NCBI GenBank assembly: GCA_903937385.1
Contig: CAIZZF010000026.1
Span: forward strand, 310,001 to 374,000
Direction of reading: 5' to 3'
Source of the DNA: an uncultured Holophagaceae bacterium
GTDB lineage: Bacteria; Acidobacteriota; Holophagae; Holophagales; Holophagaceae
DNA length: 64,000 bases
Shown: one piece after another, positions 3,187 to 20,187 of the stretch
How the letters are laid out: every line of letters starts with the position of its first letter
Position numbering within the stretch: the first letter of the stretch is position 1
Made by a program: the position numbers and the translations under genes
Notes under the pieces: generated by a model
What the model was told of the DNA's origin: nothing
The model's input: only the letters and a program-made list of their open reading frames with translations
The model's database searches: none

Positions 3187-3918
3187 TCAGGTCACCCGAT
3201 CGAGCTGCTGCCGGCTGCCCAGCAGCCGCGTGTAAAGCATGCCCGTGTGATACCAGTGCAGGAGAAAGGCCTCTCCTGCCGCCCGCGCCCACCATGCGGA
3301 GGTCCCCGGACCCGGCGGCGCCAACCGCGCCGCGCTGCAGCTCACGTCCAGATCGAGGCCCCGGGCCGTGGTCCCCGCCCGGGCCAGGTGCAGGGGATCC
3401 GACACCAGCAGCAGGGTCCGCCAGGCGGCCTTCCGCATCTGGATCCGGACATTGAAGAGGTTCTCCAGGGTGTGCTGGCTGCGGTCCTCCAGCAGCAGCG
3501 CCTCGGCGGGGAGGCCCCGCGCCAGGAGCCAGTCCCGGCCCGCTTCGGCCTCACTGCGCGCGGCAGTCCCCGTGGTGCCGCCGGCGATAAACAGGCGGGG
3601 CGCAAAGCCCTGGCGCCAGAGATCCTCGGCATGGGCCAGCCGGGCCAGGAAGACCGGGGTCAGGGCGTCATGGTCCAGACGCCGCCCCAGCACGAGGATG
3701 GCATCCACCGGAGCCGCCTCCTCGCCCCGGGCAGCCCGCAGGACCTGCCAGAGCCGAACCAGCCAGGGCAGTCCGGCCAGCCCCAGGCAGCTCAGCAGGG
3801 CCAAGGCAAGGGAAGCGGCCCCGCCAGGTCCCAGCTTCTGCCAGAAGGTGGCACGGGGCGGCGCCGCATAGACCCCCTTGGAGCCCTTCCCGCTCGCGCT
3901 GTCATCCTGGCCGCCCAT
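3187..3918 (-). CDS. DUF218 / ElyC-SanA-YdcF family membrane protein
   Basis: About 243 residues. A hydrophobic segment (near residues 30-55) is followed by a DUF218 domain: AILVLG, FIAGGTTGTAARSEAEAG, and EDRSQHTLENLFNV, which corresponds to the family pattern with SEA and an acidic Glu followed by S-x-[NH]-T-x-EN. Relatives (SanA, ElyC, YdcF) act at the cell envelope and are linked to barrier function or undecaprenyl-carrier metabolism, but their chemistry is poorly defined. The start is taken as the ATG at 3918, just before a plausible N-terminal anchor. An open frame extends to 4128, but that part runs through the presumed terminator of glnK. Confidence 0.75.
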   Translation of the reverse strand: MGGQDDSASGKGSKGVYAAPPRATFWQKLGPGGAASLALALLSCLGLAGLPWLVRLWQVLRAARGEEAAPVDAILVLGRRLDHDALTPVFLARLAHAEDLWRQGFAPRLFIAGGTTGTAARSEAEAGRDWLLARGLPAEALLLEDRSQHTLENLFNVRIQMRKAAWRTLLLVSDPLHLARAGTTARGLDLDVSCSAARLAPPGPGTSAWWARAAGEAFLLHWYHTGMLYTRLLGSRQQLDRVT

Positions 3919-3993
3919 GGTTCCGTTGTAGCACCCCCGGCGCGGGGGCGCCCCTGGGGATCTTCCCCACGCCGGGGGAAAGCCTTCAACCAG

Positions 3994-4032
3994 AAGGGCA
4001 CGGAGGGCGGCAAGCCGCCTTCCGTGCCCTTT
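3994..4032 (-). terminator. Probable terminator of the amtB-glnK operon
   Basis: An 18-bp stem with one mismatch (arms AAGGGCACGGAGGGCGGC and GCCGCCTTCCGTGCCCTT) with a very short loop, placed about 40 bases past the glnK stop. The U-tract is weak, so termination may be partial. Confidence 0.6.
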
Positions 4033-4069
4033 CGGTGTTCCATGAGAATCCCTGTGGGAGGGAGGATCC

Positions 4070-4423
4070 TCACGGCCCGATGGCGGCGCTGCCGGTTTCG
4101 CCTGTGCGCACCCGGTAGCAGTCTTCAAGGTTCAGGACGAAGACCTTGCCGTCGCCCAGGTGGCTGGGCTCCGACTTGGCAGCGGTGATGATGGCCTGCA
4201 CCGCTGGCTTCACGAACTCTTCGTTGACGGCGATCTCCAGCTTCACCTTGGGGAGCAGTCGGACCAGGCCGATCTTGTTGCCCCGGAACTGCTCGGCGAA
4301 GCCCTTCTGCGTGCCGCAGCCGCGGACATCCGAGACGGTCATCAGGTAGATCTCCTGGGCCACCAGGGCGGCCTGGACCGCCTCGAACTTATCCGGGCGG
4401 ATGATGGCGATGATCATTTTCAT
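4070..4423 (-). CDS. glnK: PII nitrogen regulatory protein
   Basis: A 117-residue PII protein. PII trimers bind ATP/ADP and 2-oxoglutarate and, in the GlnK branch, plug the ammonium channel AmtB when nitrogen is plentiful. Visible motifs are GTQKGFAEQFRG at the start of the T-loop, LLPKVKLEI, and the C-terminal YRVRTGETGSAAI nucleotide-site signature. Counting from the Met, position 51 is Ile, where many PII proteins carry the uridylylated Tyr51, and position 49 is Asn where cyanobacteria have the phosphorylated Ser. Covalent control at those sites is therefore unlikely. It lies 48 bases after amtB, which supports the GlnK naming. The ribosome site AGGAG lies 6 bases before the ATG. Confidence 0.93.
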   Translation of the reverse strand: MKMIIAIIRPDKFEAVQAALVAQEIYLMTVSDVRGCGTQKGFAEQFRGNKIGLVRLLPKVKLEIAVNEEFVKPAVQAIITAAKSEPSHLGDGKVFVLNLEDCYRVRTGETGSAAIGP

Positions 4424-4471
4424 GGGGAACTCCTCTCACGTGATGTTGGGCAGGGATGGCTCAGCTTCCGC

Positions 4472-14570: not shown

Positions 14571-15488
14571 CTAGACGCCCCGGAACTTCCCTGAAATAGC
14601 GACCTGCATGCCCTTCAGGTGGGCCATGACCCGCTCCAGCTTCTGGCGGGCGATGTCCTGGAACTGCATGAGCTGGATCAGGGCGAAGACCGTGTCCTGC
14701 ATCTCCTGGTTGGTGGTTTCCAGCTCGGCGATGGCCTTCTCCTGGCCCTTCAGCTTGCCCAGTCCCGCCTCTTGCTTCAGGTAGCCGATGCCCCGGAAGA
14801 CCCTGTCTGTGCCCGCCAGCATGGTTTCGATCCGCTCGAGGACCTTGGCCATCTCCTGCTCGGTGTAAGTGATCGAGGACTCGATCTGGGGAATCACCCG
14901 GTGCTCGTCCTGCTCCTTGGCCGGCGCCATGTCGATGAGCCGCCGGAGGTCGTCGTCGAGGCGCTCCTCCAGGCTGCGGGCGGCGAGGGCTTCCCGGCCC
15001 TGGGTGCGTCCTGGTCCCAGGTTGGCGATCATGGCCGCGTCCAGCAAGGTGACAACGCGGTCGCCCTGGACGATGAAGCCCTCGACCCAGGCGCCGCCGA
15101 GTCCGGCCAGCATGGGACTGGCCTTGACCAGATCCTCCTCAGGCACGCTAAGCACCGCGTCCACAGCATCCACCAGGAGGCCCGTGGCGGTGCCGGCCAG
15201 ATCCAGGACCAGGATGGTGGGGATCAGAGCCGAATCCAGCGGAGGCAGGGACATGCGCTCCCGCAGGCTCATCACGGGCACCACCCGGCCCCGGAGGTCG
15301 AGGATGCCCTCCACCGCCTTAGGCATGTGGGGCAGCCGGTTCAGCTCCCGGAGGGGCGTGATCTCCGCCACGTGATGGAGGGGGATGCCATAGGTTCGCT
15401 CGTTCAGGACAAAGGTCATGAACCGGTGCTGGACGGACCCTTGGCCCGCGGCGCGGGTCGGAGACGTCGGAGCGGCACCAGGGTTCAC
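14571..15488 (-). CDS. CheW domain fused to a CheZ-like phosphatase domain
   Basis: A 305-residue protein with two parts. Residues about 20-155 are a CheW domain (MTFVLNERTYGIPLHHVAEI, VEGILDLRGRVVPVMSLRER), which docks to CheA and chemoreceptors. Residues about 170-300 are a helical region ending in LMQFQDIARQKLERV, with Asp278 and Gln282 in the D-x3-Q spacing that is catalytic in CheZ (DLTGQ in E. coli). The expected role is CheY-P dephosphorylation held at the receptor array. The start is a GTG overlapping the cheA stop (GTGA), so it is translationally coupled. It is the last gene of the cheY-cheZ-cheW3-cheA operon. The CheZ assignment rests on the motif and on similarity to the 199-residue protein at 19222-19821. 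Confidence 0.75.
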   Translation of the reverse strand: MNPGAAPTSPTRAAGQGSVQHRFMTFVLNERTYGIPLHHVAEITPLRELNRLPHMPKAVEGILDLRGRVVPVMSLRERMSLPPLDSALIPTILVLDLAGTATGLLVDAVDAVLSVPEEDLVKASPMLAGLGGAWVEGFIVQGDRVVTLLDAAMIANLGPGRTQGREALAARSLEERLDDDLRRLIDMAPAKEQDEHRVIPQIESSITYTEQEMAKVLERIETMLAGTDRVFRGIGYLKQEAGLGKLKGQEKAIAELETTNQEMQDTVFALIQLMQFQDIARQKLERVMAHLKGMQVAISGKFRGV

Positions 15489-17689
15489 ACGGCCTCCTGG
15501 ACAGCAAGCTGCAGGAGCTCCGCGGGATCGAGGATCAGGACCACGCCGCCATCACCCATGATGGAGGCGCCGCTGATGCCCGGCAGGGCGGCGAGGTAGG
15601 GCGCCAGGGGCTTGATGACCACTTCCTGCCGGCGCACGAAGGCGTCGACGATGATGCCCATGCGCCGTCCGGAGCTGGAGACCACCACCACGGAGAGGCC
15701 CTCCGACTCGGCCTCGGTGTTCACCGGGGCCTTGGACTTCAGCAGGTGCTGAAGGCGACTCACGCCCAGCACCTCCCCCCGCAGGTTGATGGCCTGCCGG
15801 CTGGTGAGGTGCGACACGCTCTCGAGGGGCACGATCAGGGTCTCTTCGACGGCGGTGCCCGGGATGGCAAACACCTGCCCGCCGCTCTTCACGAGCAGGG
15901 CGTCGATGATGGCCAGGGTCAGAGGGAGCTTGATGGTGAAGACCGAGCCCTTCCCGACCGTGGAGCGGATGCCCACCCGGCCGTTGAGCTTGCGGACATT
16001 GGACCGCACCACGTCCATGCCGACGCCGCGGCCGGAGATGTCCGTGACCTGGGCAGCGGTGCTGAAGCCCGGGGCGAAGATGAGCTCGATGATCTCTTCA
16101 TCGGGCATGGCCTCGGCCCGGTCCACGGTCAGCAGGCCCTTCTCGATGGCCTTGGCGCGGATGACCGCCGGGTCGATGCCCTTGCCGTCGTCCTCGATCT
16201 CGACCACCACGCTGTCGCCTTCGTGGCGGGCGCGCAGGATCACGATGCCCGTCTCGGACTTGCCCGCCTTCAGCCGCACTTCCGGCGACTCGATGCCGTG
16301 GTCGGCGCTGTTCCGGATCAGGTGAATCATCGGGTCGCCCAGCTCCTCGATGATGCTCTTGTCGATCTCAGTGTCCTCACCCACCAGCTGCAGCTCGATC
16401 TTCTTCCCGCTGGCCTTGGCCAGGTCGCGGAGCATGCGCGGGAACTTCGAGAAGACGGTCTTCACCGGAACCATGCGGATGCCCAGCACCGAGGCCTGGA
16501 TCTCCTTGCTCACGTGGTCCAGATAGACCGAGGCGTGCGCGAGCTCCTTGGCGACACCGGCGGCCGAATGGCCATTGACCTGCGGCACCAGGCGCTCCAC
16601 CAGGTGGCTGATCATGGTCTTGCTGATGATCAGCTCCGCCACGATGTTCATGAACTGTTCGAGCTTGGCCTGGCTCACCCGGATGGTGTCGCCAGCGCCC
16701 TTGTCGTCACCGCCCCGGCGACTGTTCTTGCGGCGGTCATCGGTGGGGGCGGCCGGGTCTGGAGTGGCAGGCCCTGCCGTGGCAGGCTCCGGCGTGACCA
16801 GCTCTGGCGTGGCAAGGTCCGGGGCGGCTTCCGCCACAGGTGCGGTCGGGGCCGCCTGCTCCTGTGCCGGGCCGAGGGCCAGAGGATGGAACGTGATGAC
16901 GGCGTGGGTGACGGCGCCGAAGACCTTCTTGACCTCCTCCATCGACTCGGTGACTTCAAGCAGGATCACCAGGTCCAGGTGGAAGCAGCGGGGGTCGAAG
17001 GAGTCCAGGTCCACCAGGGGCTCGCGGGGAACGAGCTGCCGATGGAGCGGGCGCCCCACCAGGTCTGCCACCTGGAAGAGCGTGAAGGGATTGAACGCCG
17101 TGCCGTAGATGGCGCCGGAGAGCTCGGCGTGCACGCCGACCACCGTGTTGCCCTCGGCGAGCGAGGCAAAGGCAGCGGCCCGGCCAGCCTCACTGACCCC
17201 GGCCAGGAGGGGCGGCATCTGGACCACGCTCGCGGGGGCGGGCACCGCCGGAGCGGCAGCGGCAGCTGCGGCTGCGGCCTCTCCCTGCTTGAGGGATTCG
17301 AGGTTCCGGAGCAGCTCGCTGGGGTCCGGATCCTGGGGCTCGCCCTGCTTGCGGACCTGGATGCCCACGTCGTCGACCAGCACCTTGAGCAGGTCCACGG
17401 TCTCGAAGAGCAGCTCCATGACCCGGTCGCTGAGTTCCATGCGGCCCTTGCGCAGGTCGTCCAGCACGTTCTCGCCCATGTGGCTGACCGAGAGCACCTT
17501 CTGGAGTCCGAGGAAGCCCGCGGCTCCCTTGATGGTGTGGACGCTGCGGAAGATGGCGTTCAGCAGGTCGAGGTCGCCCGGGGCCTCCTCGAGGGCCAGG
17601 AAGTTGGTCTCGATCTGCTCGAAGTGTTCCTGGGCCTCGACAAGGAAGTCCTCATAGAAGCTGGGGTCGTCCAGGGTGAAATCGTTCAT
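15485..17689 (-). CDS. cheA: Chemotaxis histidine kinase CheA
   Basis: A 734-residue CheA. P1 (HPt) has the phospho-acceptor His51 in VHTIKGAAGFLG. An Ala-rich linker and an unusual region at about residues 160-270 occupy the P2 position without an obvious CheY-binding fold. Next come P3 dimerisation helices, the P4 kinase (N box DPMIHLIRNSADHGIE, G1 EDDGKGID, G2 GRGVGMDVV) and a C-terminal CheW-like P5. It phosphorylates CheY in response to chemoreceptors. It overlaps the triple-CheW gene by four bases (ATGA) and the CheW-CheZ gene at the other end. The middle Ala/Pro-rich stretch (ATAGPATPDPAAP) is low complexity. Confidence 0.95.
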   Translation of the reverse strand: MNDFTLDDPSFYEDFLVEAQEHFEQIETNFLALEEAPGDLDLLNAIFRSVHTIKGAAGFLGLQKVLSVSHMGENVLDDLRKGRMELSDRVMELLFETVDLLKVLVDDVGIQVRKQGEPQDPDPSELLRNLESLKQGEAAAAAAAAAPAVPAPASVVQMPPLLAGVSEAGRAAAFASLAEGNTVVGVHAELSGAIYGTAFNPFTLFQVADLVGRPLHRQLVPREPLVDLDSFDPRCFHLDLVILLEVTESMEEVKKVFGAVTHAVITFHPLALGPAQEQAAPTAPVAEAAPDLATPELVTPEPATAGPATPDPAAPTDDRRKNSRRGGDDKGAGDTIRVSQAKLEQFMNIVAELIISKTMISHLVERLVPQVNGHSAAGVAKELAHASVYLDHVSKEIQASVLGIRMVPVKTVFSKFPRMLRDLAKASGKKIELQLVGEDTEIDKSIIEELGDPMIHLIRNSADHGIESPEVRLKAGKSETGIVILRARHEGDSVVVEIEDDGKGIDPAVIRAKAIEKGLLTVDRAEAMPDEEIIELIFAPGFSTAAQVTDISGRGVGMDVVRSNVRKLNGRVGIRSTVGKGSVFTIKLPLTLAIIDALLVKSGGQVFAIPGTAVEETLIVPLESVSHLTSRQAINLRGEVLGVSRLQHLLKSKAPVNTEAESEGLSVVVVSSSGRRMGIIVDAFVRRQEVVIKPLAPYLAALPGISGASIMGDGGVVLILDPAELLQLAVQEAV

Positions 17690-19218
17690 GGCTCACCCGT
17701 TCGGCTGGCCGCAGGGCGGCGTCCCTGGAGGTTCTGAAGCTGGCCGGTTTCCGTGTCCGTCAGCAGCTGCTGGAGCTCCAGCAGGAAGATCATGCTGCTG
17801 TCGAGCCGGGCAACCTTCTCAATGTAGCGGTTGGCCCCCACGGCCGTGACCGCAGGAGGCGGGCCGAAGCGGCTCAGCTCCACAGGGCGGACCTCGTCCA
17901 CAGCATCCACCACGAGGCCGGTAAAGACCCCGCCGATGCTCGTGATGAGGATGCGGGAGATGCTGGTCGCCTCCACGCGCTCCAGGCCGAAGCGGGTGCG
18001 GAGGTCCACCACGGGCATCACCTCGCCCCGCAGGTTCAGGACGCCGTCCACGAAATCGGGGGCCCGGGGCACCGGCGTGATCTGGCTCACCATGACGATC
18101 TCGCGCACCTCATGGAGTCGCAGGGCATAGTTCTCGGGCCCCAGGCGGAACACGACCAGCTCTAGGCTGGGAGCGACTTCCTGGGTGCGGTTGTCCGCCA
18201 GGCCGAGCCCCTGACCCAGGGCGGCGATCTTCTCCTGGTCATCGCCCGTGATGATCTTCAGCACGTTGATGAGGCTCACCATGCGGCCCGGCAGCAGGAG
18301 GATGCCGCTCAGGTGCTCGCGCTCGGCCTCGGAGAGGGTCTGGGGCGGCGGCAGGGTCTGGCCCTCCTGGACCCGGAGGATCTCCTGGATCTCATCCACG
18401 ACCACGCCGATCTTCGCGGTGCCGAAGGAGAGCAGCACCACCATGTCTCGCTTGCGCTCGACTCCCTCCTGCTGGATGGAGAGGATCTCGGAGATGTCCA
18501 CCAGGGGCATGACGTGATCCCGCAGGCAGATCACCCCCAGCACGTAGTCCGGCGCATCCGGCACCTTGGTCACCGGCGGCAGCTCGACGATCTCCTCCAC
18601 CTCGTGCAGGGCGATGCCGAAGGATTCCCGGCCCAGACGGAAGGTGACGTAGGGCTGGCCGTCTTCCTCAAGGTCATCGTCGTCGTCAGCGTCCGTGCTC
18701 CCGATGGTACCGGCCAGGCCCAGGTCATCGAACTCGGCGCGACGGGTGAACTCGGCGCTGTCCAGGAGCTTCTCCAGGTGGATCAGAGTGATCAGGCGGG
18801 TACCCACCGTGACCATGCCCGCCAGGTATTCGGCGCGGATGCCCGCCACCAGGGGCGGGGTGTCGCGAATCGCGTGGTCCTCGAGCCGCACCACCTCGGC
18901 CACGGAGTCCACCAGCAGGCCCGTGGGCCCGCTGGCCAGGCGCAGCACGATGATGCGGGTCTTCGTGGTGGTCTCCTGGGGCGCCAGGTGGAACCGAACC
19001 CGGCTGTCGATGACCGGGATGATCAGGCCGCGCAGGTTGATGACGCCCAGGATGAAGCTGGGGCTGCCGGGGATCGGGGTGATGTCCGTCCGGTGGGTGA
19101 TCTCCTGCACCCGGTCGATGTCCAGCCCGAACTCCACATTGTCGAGCGTGAAGGTCACCAGCTGGCCTGAAGGCACCAACTCGGTGGCGAGCAGGGACTG
19201 GGCGGACTCGACAGCCAT
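17686..19218 (-). CDS. Chemotaxis adaptor with three tandem CheW domains
   Basis: 510 residues containing three CheW repeats at about residues 15-165, 187-330 and 353-495. Each shows the typical pattern: an F-x-L-x2-x-x-F-G/A entry, then VLGVxxLR (GVINLRGLIIPVID, GVICLRDHVMPLVD, GVLNLRGEVMPVVD). A normal CheW has one domain of about 150 residues and bridges CheA to chemoreceptors. A triple adaptor could occupy several ring positions in the array. It sits between the CheZ-like gene (3-base gap) and cheA (4-base overlap). CheV (CheW plus receiver) is excluded because no receiver domain is present. Confidence 0.9.
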   Translation of the reverse strand: MAVESAQSLLATELVPSGQLVTFTLDNVEFGLDIDRVQEITHRTDITPIPGSPSFILGVINLRGLIIPVIDSRVRFHLAPQETTTKTRIIVLRLASGPTGLLVDSVAEVVRLEDHAIRDTPPLVAGIRAEYLAGMVTVGTRLITLIHLEKLLDSAEFTRRAEFDDLGLAGTIGSTDADDDDDLEEDGQPYVTFRLGRESFGIALHEVEEIVELPPVTKVPDAPDYVLGVICLRDHVMPLVDISEILSIQQEGVERKRDMVVLLSFGTAKIGVVVDEIQEILRVQEGQTLPPPQTLSEAEREHLSGILLLPGRMVSLINVLKIITGDDQEKIAALGQGLGLADNRTQEVAPSLELVVFRLGPENYALRLHEVREIVMVSQITPVPRAPDFVDGVLNLRGEVMPVVDLRTRFGLERVEATSISRILITSIGGVFTGLVVDAVDEVRPVELSRFGPPPAVTAVGANRYIEKVARLDSSMIFLLELQQLLTDTETGQLQNLQGRRPAASRTGEP

Positions 19219-19221
19219 GGG

Positions 19222-19821
19222 TTACCCCTTCTTCTGGGTCTTGAAGGCCTCGATCACCGCATCTGCGTGGGCCTTGTTCTCGTCGGGCGTGGTGCCAGTC
19301 TGCGCAATGGTGTGGCTGATGGAGGGCCGCGCGGTGTCGCTCTTCAGACCCGTGCCCAGCAGGTCCACGATGTAGTCGTGGATCTGGCGCAGGTGGTGCA
19401 GGATGCGCTCCAGCTTCTGGCGGGTGATGTCCTGGAACTGCATCAGGTCCATGGCCTCGAAGACCTTGTCCTGAATCTCCTTGCTGGCGCTCATGACCTC
19501 GAGAATCGCCTTCTGCACTCCCGGCGCCTGGGCACCTTCGTTGCTCATGATCTCTGTGACGAGGCGTTGCTGGCGGTTCACGAGCTGGCCGATCTGATCC
19601 AGCTGGTCCATGACCTTGTTGGATTCCCGCTCGGTGACGGCGGTGACCGTGTCCAGCTCGGAGATCACGTGCCCGCTGCCGTCCGCATGCGGCTCGGCGT
19701 GAGGGGCCACCGTGACGGCCGGAGGGGCAATCACGGGATCCTTGACGGGGGCGCTGACCTCGGGCTTTGTCGGCGACTTCGTCCCTCCCGCGAGGAGGGC
19801 ATCTATTTCGGACTGATCCAT
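19222..19821 (-). CDS. CheZ-like CheY-P phosphatase with FliM-like N-terminal EIDALL peptide
   Basis: A 199-residue protein. It begins MDQSEIDALLAGG, closely resembling the N-terminal CheY-P-binding peptide of FliM and FliY (SQ-x-EIDALL). An acidic/Pro-rich linker (about residues 14-50) leads to a long helical domain with LMQFQDITRQKLERI, where Asp131 and Gln135 have the CheZ D-x3-Q spacing. The inferred role is removal of phosphate from CheY-P, with the N-terminal peptide acting as substrate tether in place of the C-terminal CheZ peptide of enterobacteria. It lies 9 bases after cheY and directly before the triple cheW gene. The ribosome site AGGAG lies 6 bases before the ATG. Confidence 0.75.
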   Translation of the reverse strand: MDQSEIDALLAGGTKSPTKPEVSAPVKDPVIAPPAVTVAPHAEPHADGSGHVISELDTVTAVTERESNKVMDQLDQIGQLVNRQQRLVTEIMSNEGAQAPGVQKAILEVMSASKEIQDKVFEAMDLMQFQDITRQKLERILHHLRQIHDYIVDLLGTGLKSDTARPSISHTIAQTGTTPDENKAHADAVIEAFKTQKKG

Positions 19822-19830
19822 GGCCTGCTC

Positions 19831-20187
19831 CTATCCCAGGAGGGACTCGATCTTTTCCTTGAGGGTCTCCGGGGTGAATGGCTTCACCACGTAGTTGTTC
19901 ACGCCGGCCTGGAGGGCTTCGACGATGTCCTCCTTGGCGGCGTTGGTGGTCACCATCAGGATCGGGATGACGGGGTTCTGGGTCCGCACGGTCTTCACGA
20001 ACTCAAGCCCATCCATCTCCGGCATGTTCCAGTCGGTGATGATCATCTCCACCCCGCCCTGGCCGAGCCGCTCGAGGCCGCTCTTGCCGTTGTCACCCTC
20101 GACCACATCGGTATAGCCGATGCGGGACAGGGTGTTGATGATGATGCGCCGCATCGTCGAGGAATCGTCCACGATGAGGATCTTCAC
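19831..20187 (-). CDS. cheY: CheY response regulator
   Basis: A 118-residue single receiver domain. It has the acidic pocket VDD (residues 6-8), the phospho-acceptor Asp in MIITDWNMPEMDG, Thr in MVTTNAA and Lys in VVKPF, all as in CheY. It has no output domain, so it should act by binding the flagellar switch or another motor. It is the first gene of the chemotaxis operon and starts with GTG after CAGGAGGCCCCC. The CheZ-like protein encoded next is its likely phosphatase. Confidence 0.95.
   Translation of the reverse strand: MKILIVDDSSTMRRIIINTLSRIGYTDVVEGDNGKSGLERLGQGGVEMIITDWNMPEMDGLEFVKTVRTQNPVIPILMVTTNAAKEDIVEALQAGVNNYVVKPFTPETLKEKIESLLG

Follow-up and report, generated by a model that had tools for sequence, protein, structure and literature searches.

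A conserved FliM-type peptide at the N-terminus of a CheZ-like protein that also has a putative C-terminal CheY-docking tail, and the protein's likeness to Campylobacterota CheZ

The window analyzed here, a stretch of 64,000 nucleotides from an uncultured Holophagaceae bacterium, contains a cheZ-like gene whose product begins with a FliM-type peptide, MDQSEIDALL. This peptide is conserved in nearly all orthologues, and a corresponding peptide opens the CheZ proteins of Campylobacterota. We consider it moderately probable, at roughly 60%, that the protein belongs to the Helicobacter-type class of CheZ phosphatases acting on CheY-P, and that its N-terminal peptide is a second docking site, mimicking FliM and auxiliary to the catalytic function. 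Under this reading, the so far unexplained N-terminal part of Helicobacter/Campylobacter-type CheZ gains a concrete identity, and the phosphatase would rival the motor switch for CheY-P, each using the same peptide. If this is true, signal termination would be set by the rivalry of matched FliM-type peptides, beyond the C-terminal tether of CheZ.

The cheZ-like gene and its neighbors

The cheZ-like gene lies in a tight run of chemotaxis genes on the minus strand, in the order cheY, the cheZ-like gene, a gene for a protein with three CheW domains, cheA, and a gene for a CheW-CheZ fusion. The features of this run are as follows:

19831..20187, minus strand: cheY, the putative substrate; the chemotaxis gene that opens the run, ending 9 nt before cheZ
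19828..19832, minus strand: AGGAG ribosome-binding site of the cheZ-like gene, read from the sequence
19222..19821, minus strand: cheZ-like gene, 199 aa, placed by its open reading frame and its orthologues
17686..19218, minus strand: three-CheW-domain protein, its gene starting 3 nt after cheZ
15485..17689, minus strand: cheA
14571..15488, minus strand: CheW-CheZ fusion with D278-x3-Q282, without a C-terminal docking tail

The AGGAG site lies 6 nt ahead of the ATG, and the frame stays open for just 3 codons further upstream; the start of the gene is soundly placed. The open reading frame reads MDQSEIDALLAGG at its N-terminus, followed by FQD131ITRQ135 and HADAVIEAFKTQKKG. The residues and positions of the N-terminal FliM-type peptide were thus as described in the earlier note, and its further reading of a linker leading to a CheZ-like domain with D131-x3-Q135 was verified, the linker being disordered.

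Both cheA and the gene for the CheW-CheZ fusion overlap the preceding gene by 4 nt, and the three-CheW-domain protein sits between cheZ and cheA. The fusion stops 23 residues past its catalytic Gln, which leaves it without a C-terminal CheY-docking tail; its CheW domain is presumably what directs it to the array, and orthologues of identical layout occur across the family. The earlier note had counted two CheZ-like proteins in the operon. The fusion is indeed a second one in the same operon, but the genome has four in all. The remaining two are paralogues, one of about 320-335 aa on contig C20 (a 335-codon frame, tail VDDIIAQF) and one of 174 aa on contig C4 (positions 3901-4425 of its locus, tail DADSVVAEF). 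Both share the QD-I-x-RQK helix and a C-terminal tail with the window protein, but unlike it they have no EIDALL peptide.

Domain anatomy and conservation of the N-terminal peptide

The protein can be divided into the following parts:

19789..19821, minus strand: FliM-type peptide MDQSEIDALLA, residues 1-11 (predicted helix 3-11, pLDDT ~71; pN/pS 0.061)
19675..19788, minus strand: variable, disordered, Pro/Ala-rich linker, residues 12-49 (residues 13-42 with pLDDT < 50)
19354..19674, minus strand: predicted helical hairpin, which would form half of a CheZ-type four-helix bundle, residues 50-156 (helices 50-93 and 100-156, pLDDT ~74-90)
19417..19431, minus strand: catalytic motif D131-I-T-R-Q135, invariant in the family alignments
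19231..19287, minus strand: C-terminal helix PDENKAHADAVIEAFKTQK, residues 179-197, apparently a diverged form of the classical CheY-docking tail of CheZ

In the AlphaFold2 model (mean pLDDT 68.9), helix 3-11 is followed by disorder at residues 13-42, the two long helices at 50-93 and 100-156, a second disordered segment at 164-178, and helix 179-197. A Foldseek comparison of the monomer model with the PDB was unspecific (best E 0.31, a non-CheZ structure), as a lone long hairpin resembles many coiled coils. The Pfam CheZ profile (PF04344) matched the protein with E=2.1e-4 and 21.7 bits, under its gathering cut-off of 30.7, and the CheZ proteins of Helicobacter and Campylobacter likewise fell under that cut-off (18.6-22.2 bits). 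The NCBIfam model NF041271 (Phos_CheZ), which describes Helicobacter-type CheZ, gave E=4.3e-14 and 52.6 bits against a cut-off of 350 bits, while H. suis CheZ scored 360.2 bits over its whole length. Judged by these profiles, the CheZ homology is weak but real, and the protein is a remote relative of Helicobacter-type CheZ that falls outside the NF041271 equivalog. Pfam gave the CheZ match alone, with neither a FliM middle domain (PF02154) nor a SpoA domain in the protein. It thus resembles FliM/FliY in having EIDALL, the residues of the CheY-P-binding helix, at the N-terminus on a flexible linker, but differs in that the peptide is attached to a CheZ catalytic hairpin instead of a FliM/SpoA domain. 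Since the Pfam CheZ profile missed or scored below its cut-off most orthologues in 396 genomes of the phylum, family alignments were used for the searches.

Escherichia coli CheZ (PDB 1KMI; PF04344) shares the D-x3-Q catalytic motif and a C-terminal helix with the window protein, but its tail is the canonical VDDLLDSLGF, unlike that of the window protein. A phmmer comparison aligned FQDITRQ of the window protein to FQDLTGQ of E. coli CheZ weakly (E=0.88). To our knowledge, E. coli CheZ has no FliM-type peptide. Its N-terminal helix has been described as of "unknown function" (PMC7750401).

The presence of EIDALL in close orthologues was set beforehand as a check on the earlier claim, and the N-terminal peptide was kept in 41 of the 42 orthologous loci fetched and occurs in each of the 10 family genera that were sampled. 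These 41 start with M[D/E][Q/K][S/T]E[I/V]D[A/T]L[L/M], and 33 of them with exactly MDQSEIDALL. In the single exception, on a 4.6-kb contig, a deletion has brought the linker of cheZ directly behind the last part of cheY. The first orthologue search covered 80 related genomes, and full-length proteins turned up in two other genera as well as in most of the congeners that have flagella; a second search added more genera. The pN/pS ratio was 0.061 for the peptide (residues 1-10), 0.605 for the linker (residues 11-46, with indels), 0.089 for the catalytic helix (residues 115-156), and 0.145 for the tail (residues 179-193); the 41 sequences behind these ratios were picked by a loose form of the motif, a selection from which the count of 41 in 42 is free. 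Synonymous changes were frequent in the peptide codons, indicating that the protein sequence and not the DNA is conserved. Selection on the N-terminal peptide is as strong as on the catalytic helix. The observation made in the window was therefore right, and is stronger than earlier stated.

A six-residue motif is short, and the DNA pattern for E-[I/M/V]-D-A-L-[L/F] has 9 matches in the genome, 7 of them away from any N-terminus, so a chance or vestigial sequence without function has to be weighed. The N-terminal matches, however, are only FliM and the window protein, and the genome's own FliM (contig C30) begins MAKILSQEEVDALL, in fuller form MAKILSQEEVDALLKS. A peptide that is selected as strongly as the catalytic helix, conserved in 41 of 42 loci and found again at residue 1 in Campylobacterota is hard to explain by chance. 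This explanation is disfavored by the conservation data, and we regard it as very improbable.

The cheZ-like gene and fliM tend to occur together within the genus: 33 genomes have both, 10 neither, 3 only fliM, and 1 only cheZ (Fisher p=5.6e-7, with relatedness among the genomes ignored). Eight near-complete congeners have neither FliM nor a CheZ-like match, and this group points to flagellar loss inside the genus. A scan of viral contigs with the family alignment found no relatives.

The corresponding design in Campylobacterota CheZ

A pattern scan of public genomes with M-x-Q-[D/E/K/N]-E-[I/L/V]-D-A-L-[L/I/M] returned at least 119 stretches. Among the matches listed were at least 38 complete Campylobacterota CheZ proteins with QDIHRQK, including those of Helicobacter suis, Campylobacter concisus, Campylobacter volucris, Sulfurimonas, and Sulfuricurvum. 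These listed proteins start with MTQEELDA (one with MNQEELDA), in fuller form MTQEELDALM, and nearly all of them end like DDIEALLASFGKK. As such a scan presupposes the motif, the search was repeated independently in 200 Campylobacterota genomes with a whole-protein profile. The family was found in 174 of them; nearly all matches listed begin at profile position 1, and MTQEELDAL[M/I] was present in all 30 loci read, which were the best-scoring 30 of the profile matches. These results show that the N-terminal peptide design is not unique to the window but is phylum-wide in Campylobacterota CheZ, which is already known experimentally. The distant family of the window would then be a second, diverged lineage showing the double-peptide design.

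The relationship between the two families extends well beyond the peptide. A profile-profile comparison (hhalign) of the window family with Campylobacterota CheZ gave a probability of 99.5 and an E of 2.6e-22 over 147 columns, spanning the hairpin and the tail, and an L-D-x-V-T-x-x-x-E stretch ahead of the hairpin is common to both. AlphaFold2 predicts the same order of elements in both families: a helix at 3-11 or 3-12, a disordered linker, a long hairpin, a linker, and a C-terminal helix. The window protein thus resembles Helicobacter/Campylobacter-type CheZ in [D/T]-Q-x-E-[I/L]-D-A-L-[L/M] from residue 1, in the linker and the stretch that follows it, in the QD-I-x-RQK catalytic helix, in the C-terminal docking-type helix, and in its association with flagellar chemotaxis. 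It differs in having only 20-29% identity, a shorter hairpin, and the tail HADAVIEAF as opposed to DDIEALLASF. The gene setting is also different, as the window cheZ lies in a cheY-cheZ-cheW-cheA run, whereas the Campylobacterota cheZ lies beside trhP (PMC9321776).

The nearest named relative read here was H. suis CheZ, rather than the H. pylori CheZ on which the functional work was done. Both D189 and Q193 of H. pylori CheZ have been shown to be necessary, and without its C-terminal region the protein loses its phosphatase function (PMC11237671). The same paper gives the function of the N-terminal region as unknown, and removal of that region reportedly leaves phosphatase activity unaffected (PMC11237671). 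In the literature searched, which did not include the founding paper on H. pylori CheZ, no description of a FliM-type peptide in CheZ was found.

Two docking-type peptides and their possible roles

The C-terminal tail of the family, TPDENKAHADAVIEAFK, is also conserved, and K183, H185, A186, D187, and V189 are invariant. It aligns without gaps to the canonical tail KDSVDDIIAQFKK of a paralogue from the same genome, and hhalign aligned the tail of the window family to that of Campylobacterota CheZ. The tail peptide of the window protein is PDENKAHADAVIEAFKTQKK; the acidic pair that marks VDDLL-type tails is missing from its HADAVIEAF. The earlier note had proposed a tether at the end opposite to that of classical CheZ. 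The N-terminal peptide is real, but the classical C-terminal tail is retained, and a replacement of the one by the other is not supported. The window protein thus carries docking-type peptides, putatively for CheY, at both of its ends.

The CheZ tail and the FliM peptide dock on the same face of CheY. EIDALL is the conserved CheY-P-binding motif in the first helix of FliM, bound in the alpha4/alpha5 groove of CheY (PMC9126983), and PMC11528121 cites a crystal structure in which CheY is bound by the C-terminal peptide of CheZ (Guhaniyogi 2006). In our comparison, covering the window set and the Campylobacterota set, the N-terminal peptide was in both more like the C-terminal tail than like shuffled tails (1/500 and 0/500). 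Together with the residues kept on the face of the adjacent CheY, described below, these points lead us to read the N-terminal peptide as a second putative CheY-docking helix.

The anatomy of the sequence, its conservation, and the selection on it are shown by the data; we infer phosphatase activity, dimerization, and CheY binding by either arm, and the protein may act as follows. A CheY-P phosphatase would be made in one gene run with its CheY. Two hairpins would pair into a four-helix bundle, in which D131 would position CheY-P and Q135 would orient the attacking water. Each subunit would extend two flexible arms, each tipped by a short amphipathic helix of a type that docks on CheY at its alpha4-beta5-alpha5 face: at one end the FliM-type QSEIDALL, at the other the classical CheZ tether formed by the C-terminal tail. 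That tether would support catalysis, while the N-terminal peptide would provide an auxiliary second docking site that captures or recruits CheY-P as FliM does. Since deletion of the N-terminal region is reportedly harmless to phosphatase activity in H. pylori, the peptide is most likely auxiliary, and by the same analogy it may have no part in catalysis at all (PMC11237671). In such an auxiliary role, it would most likely capture CheY-P when little of it is present, compete with FliM, or help to place the enzyme. The H. pylori result also leans against the idea that removal of the peptide alters bulk CheY-P turnover. Three further points speak against the main reading: the missing acidic pair in the tail, the CheZ profile scores under the curated cut-offs, and a structure search in which CheZ did not come up.

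With slightly less confidence, but still on the favorable side of even, we extend this reading to a double-ended CheZ in Campylobacterota and the window family, in which a FliM-mimicking N-helix and a classical C-helix flank the catalytic bundle. Each dimer, with its two active sites, would then present four helices on which CheY could dock. In H. pylori-type CheZ, the N-terminal region would accordingly be a FliM-type ligand of CheY-P or another receiver, through which the phosphatase could rival the motor for the signal or be drawn to it.

The reported dispensability of this region for H. pylori phosphatase function could also mean that the N-terminal peptide is an address label, which binds the receiver-type face of some protein that is not the substrate CheY and so positions CheZ in the cell, for instance at a pole or an array. 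Strong conservation without a catalytic role would suit targeting, and the localization of H. pylori CheZ depends on ChePep (PMC7750401, PMC11237671). However, ChePep has been described as confined to Campylobacterota (PMC9665402) and so cannot be the shared partner in the window's family; moreover, the motif belongs to a known CheY ligand, and no candidate partner emerged. We therefore consider targeting a rather unlikely primary role. The identity of the motif with that of FliM and the flagellar co-occurrence within the genus would also fit a peptide that acts outside the phosphatase function, as a signal buffer competing with FliM for CheY-P or as a motor-side recruiter engaging the switch. 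We know of no precedent for FliM-type peptides that bind switch proteins. The retained catalytic residues and C-terminal tail argue for a phosphatase role, and pure competition overlaps with the main reading, so that such a separate function seems improbable to us.

The adjacent CheY, the putative substrate, keeps all six catalytic residues (D7, D8, D52, T80, Y99, and K102). On its FliM-binding face, 10 of 14 residues are retained. Its best solved match was 3gwg, H. pylori CheY, with 143 bits, versus about 125 bits for E. coli or Salmonella CheY. The adjacent CheY is thus nearer to H. pylori CheY, in parallel with the CheZ being nearer to Helicobacter-type CheZ, and the cheY-cheZ pair may be a matched pair inherited together.

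Several other proteins combine similar elements. In another genome of the phylum, a single CheZ adjoining cheY carries both MDQSEIDALLSGG (MDQSEIDALL) and the canonical tail NVDDIIAQF; it lies on an AT-rich 2.7-kb stretch (28% GC), which may be a stray contig in the metagenome bin. The exact EIDALL peptide was found neither among the few related CheZ in a sample of 198 genomes from the phylum of an uncultured Desulfovibrio nor among the few in 299 genomes from that of a Rhodospirillales bacterium. Two related CheZ in the former sample have the N-termini DQ[S/T]SID[D/N]II. The N-termini of two CheZ of the same subfamily (loci L286 and L287), MSSDQSSIDDII and MSSDQTSIDNII, may represent another form of this docking peptide. 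In addition, seven proteins of 130-142 aa from Ignavibacteria/Kapabacteria start with MTQ[D/E]EIDALI and end like FliN (FGIRITTLVDP), and thus look like FliN-like proteins with a FliM-type peptide.
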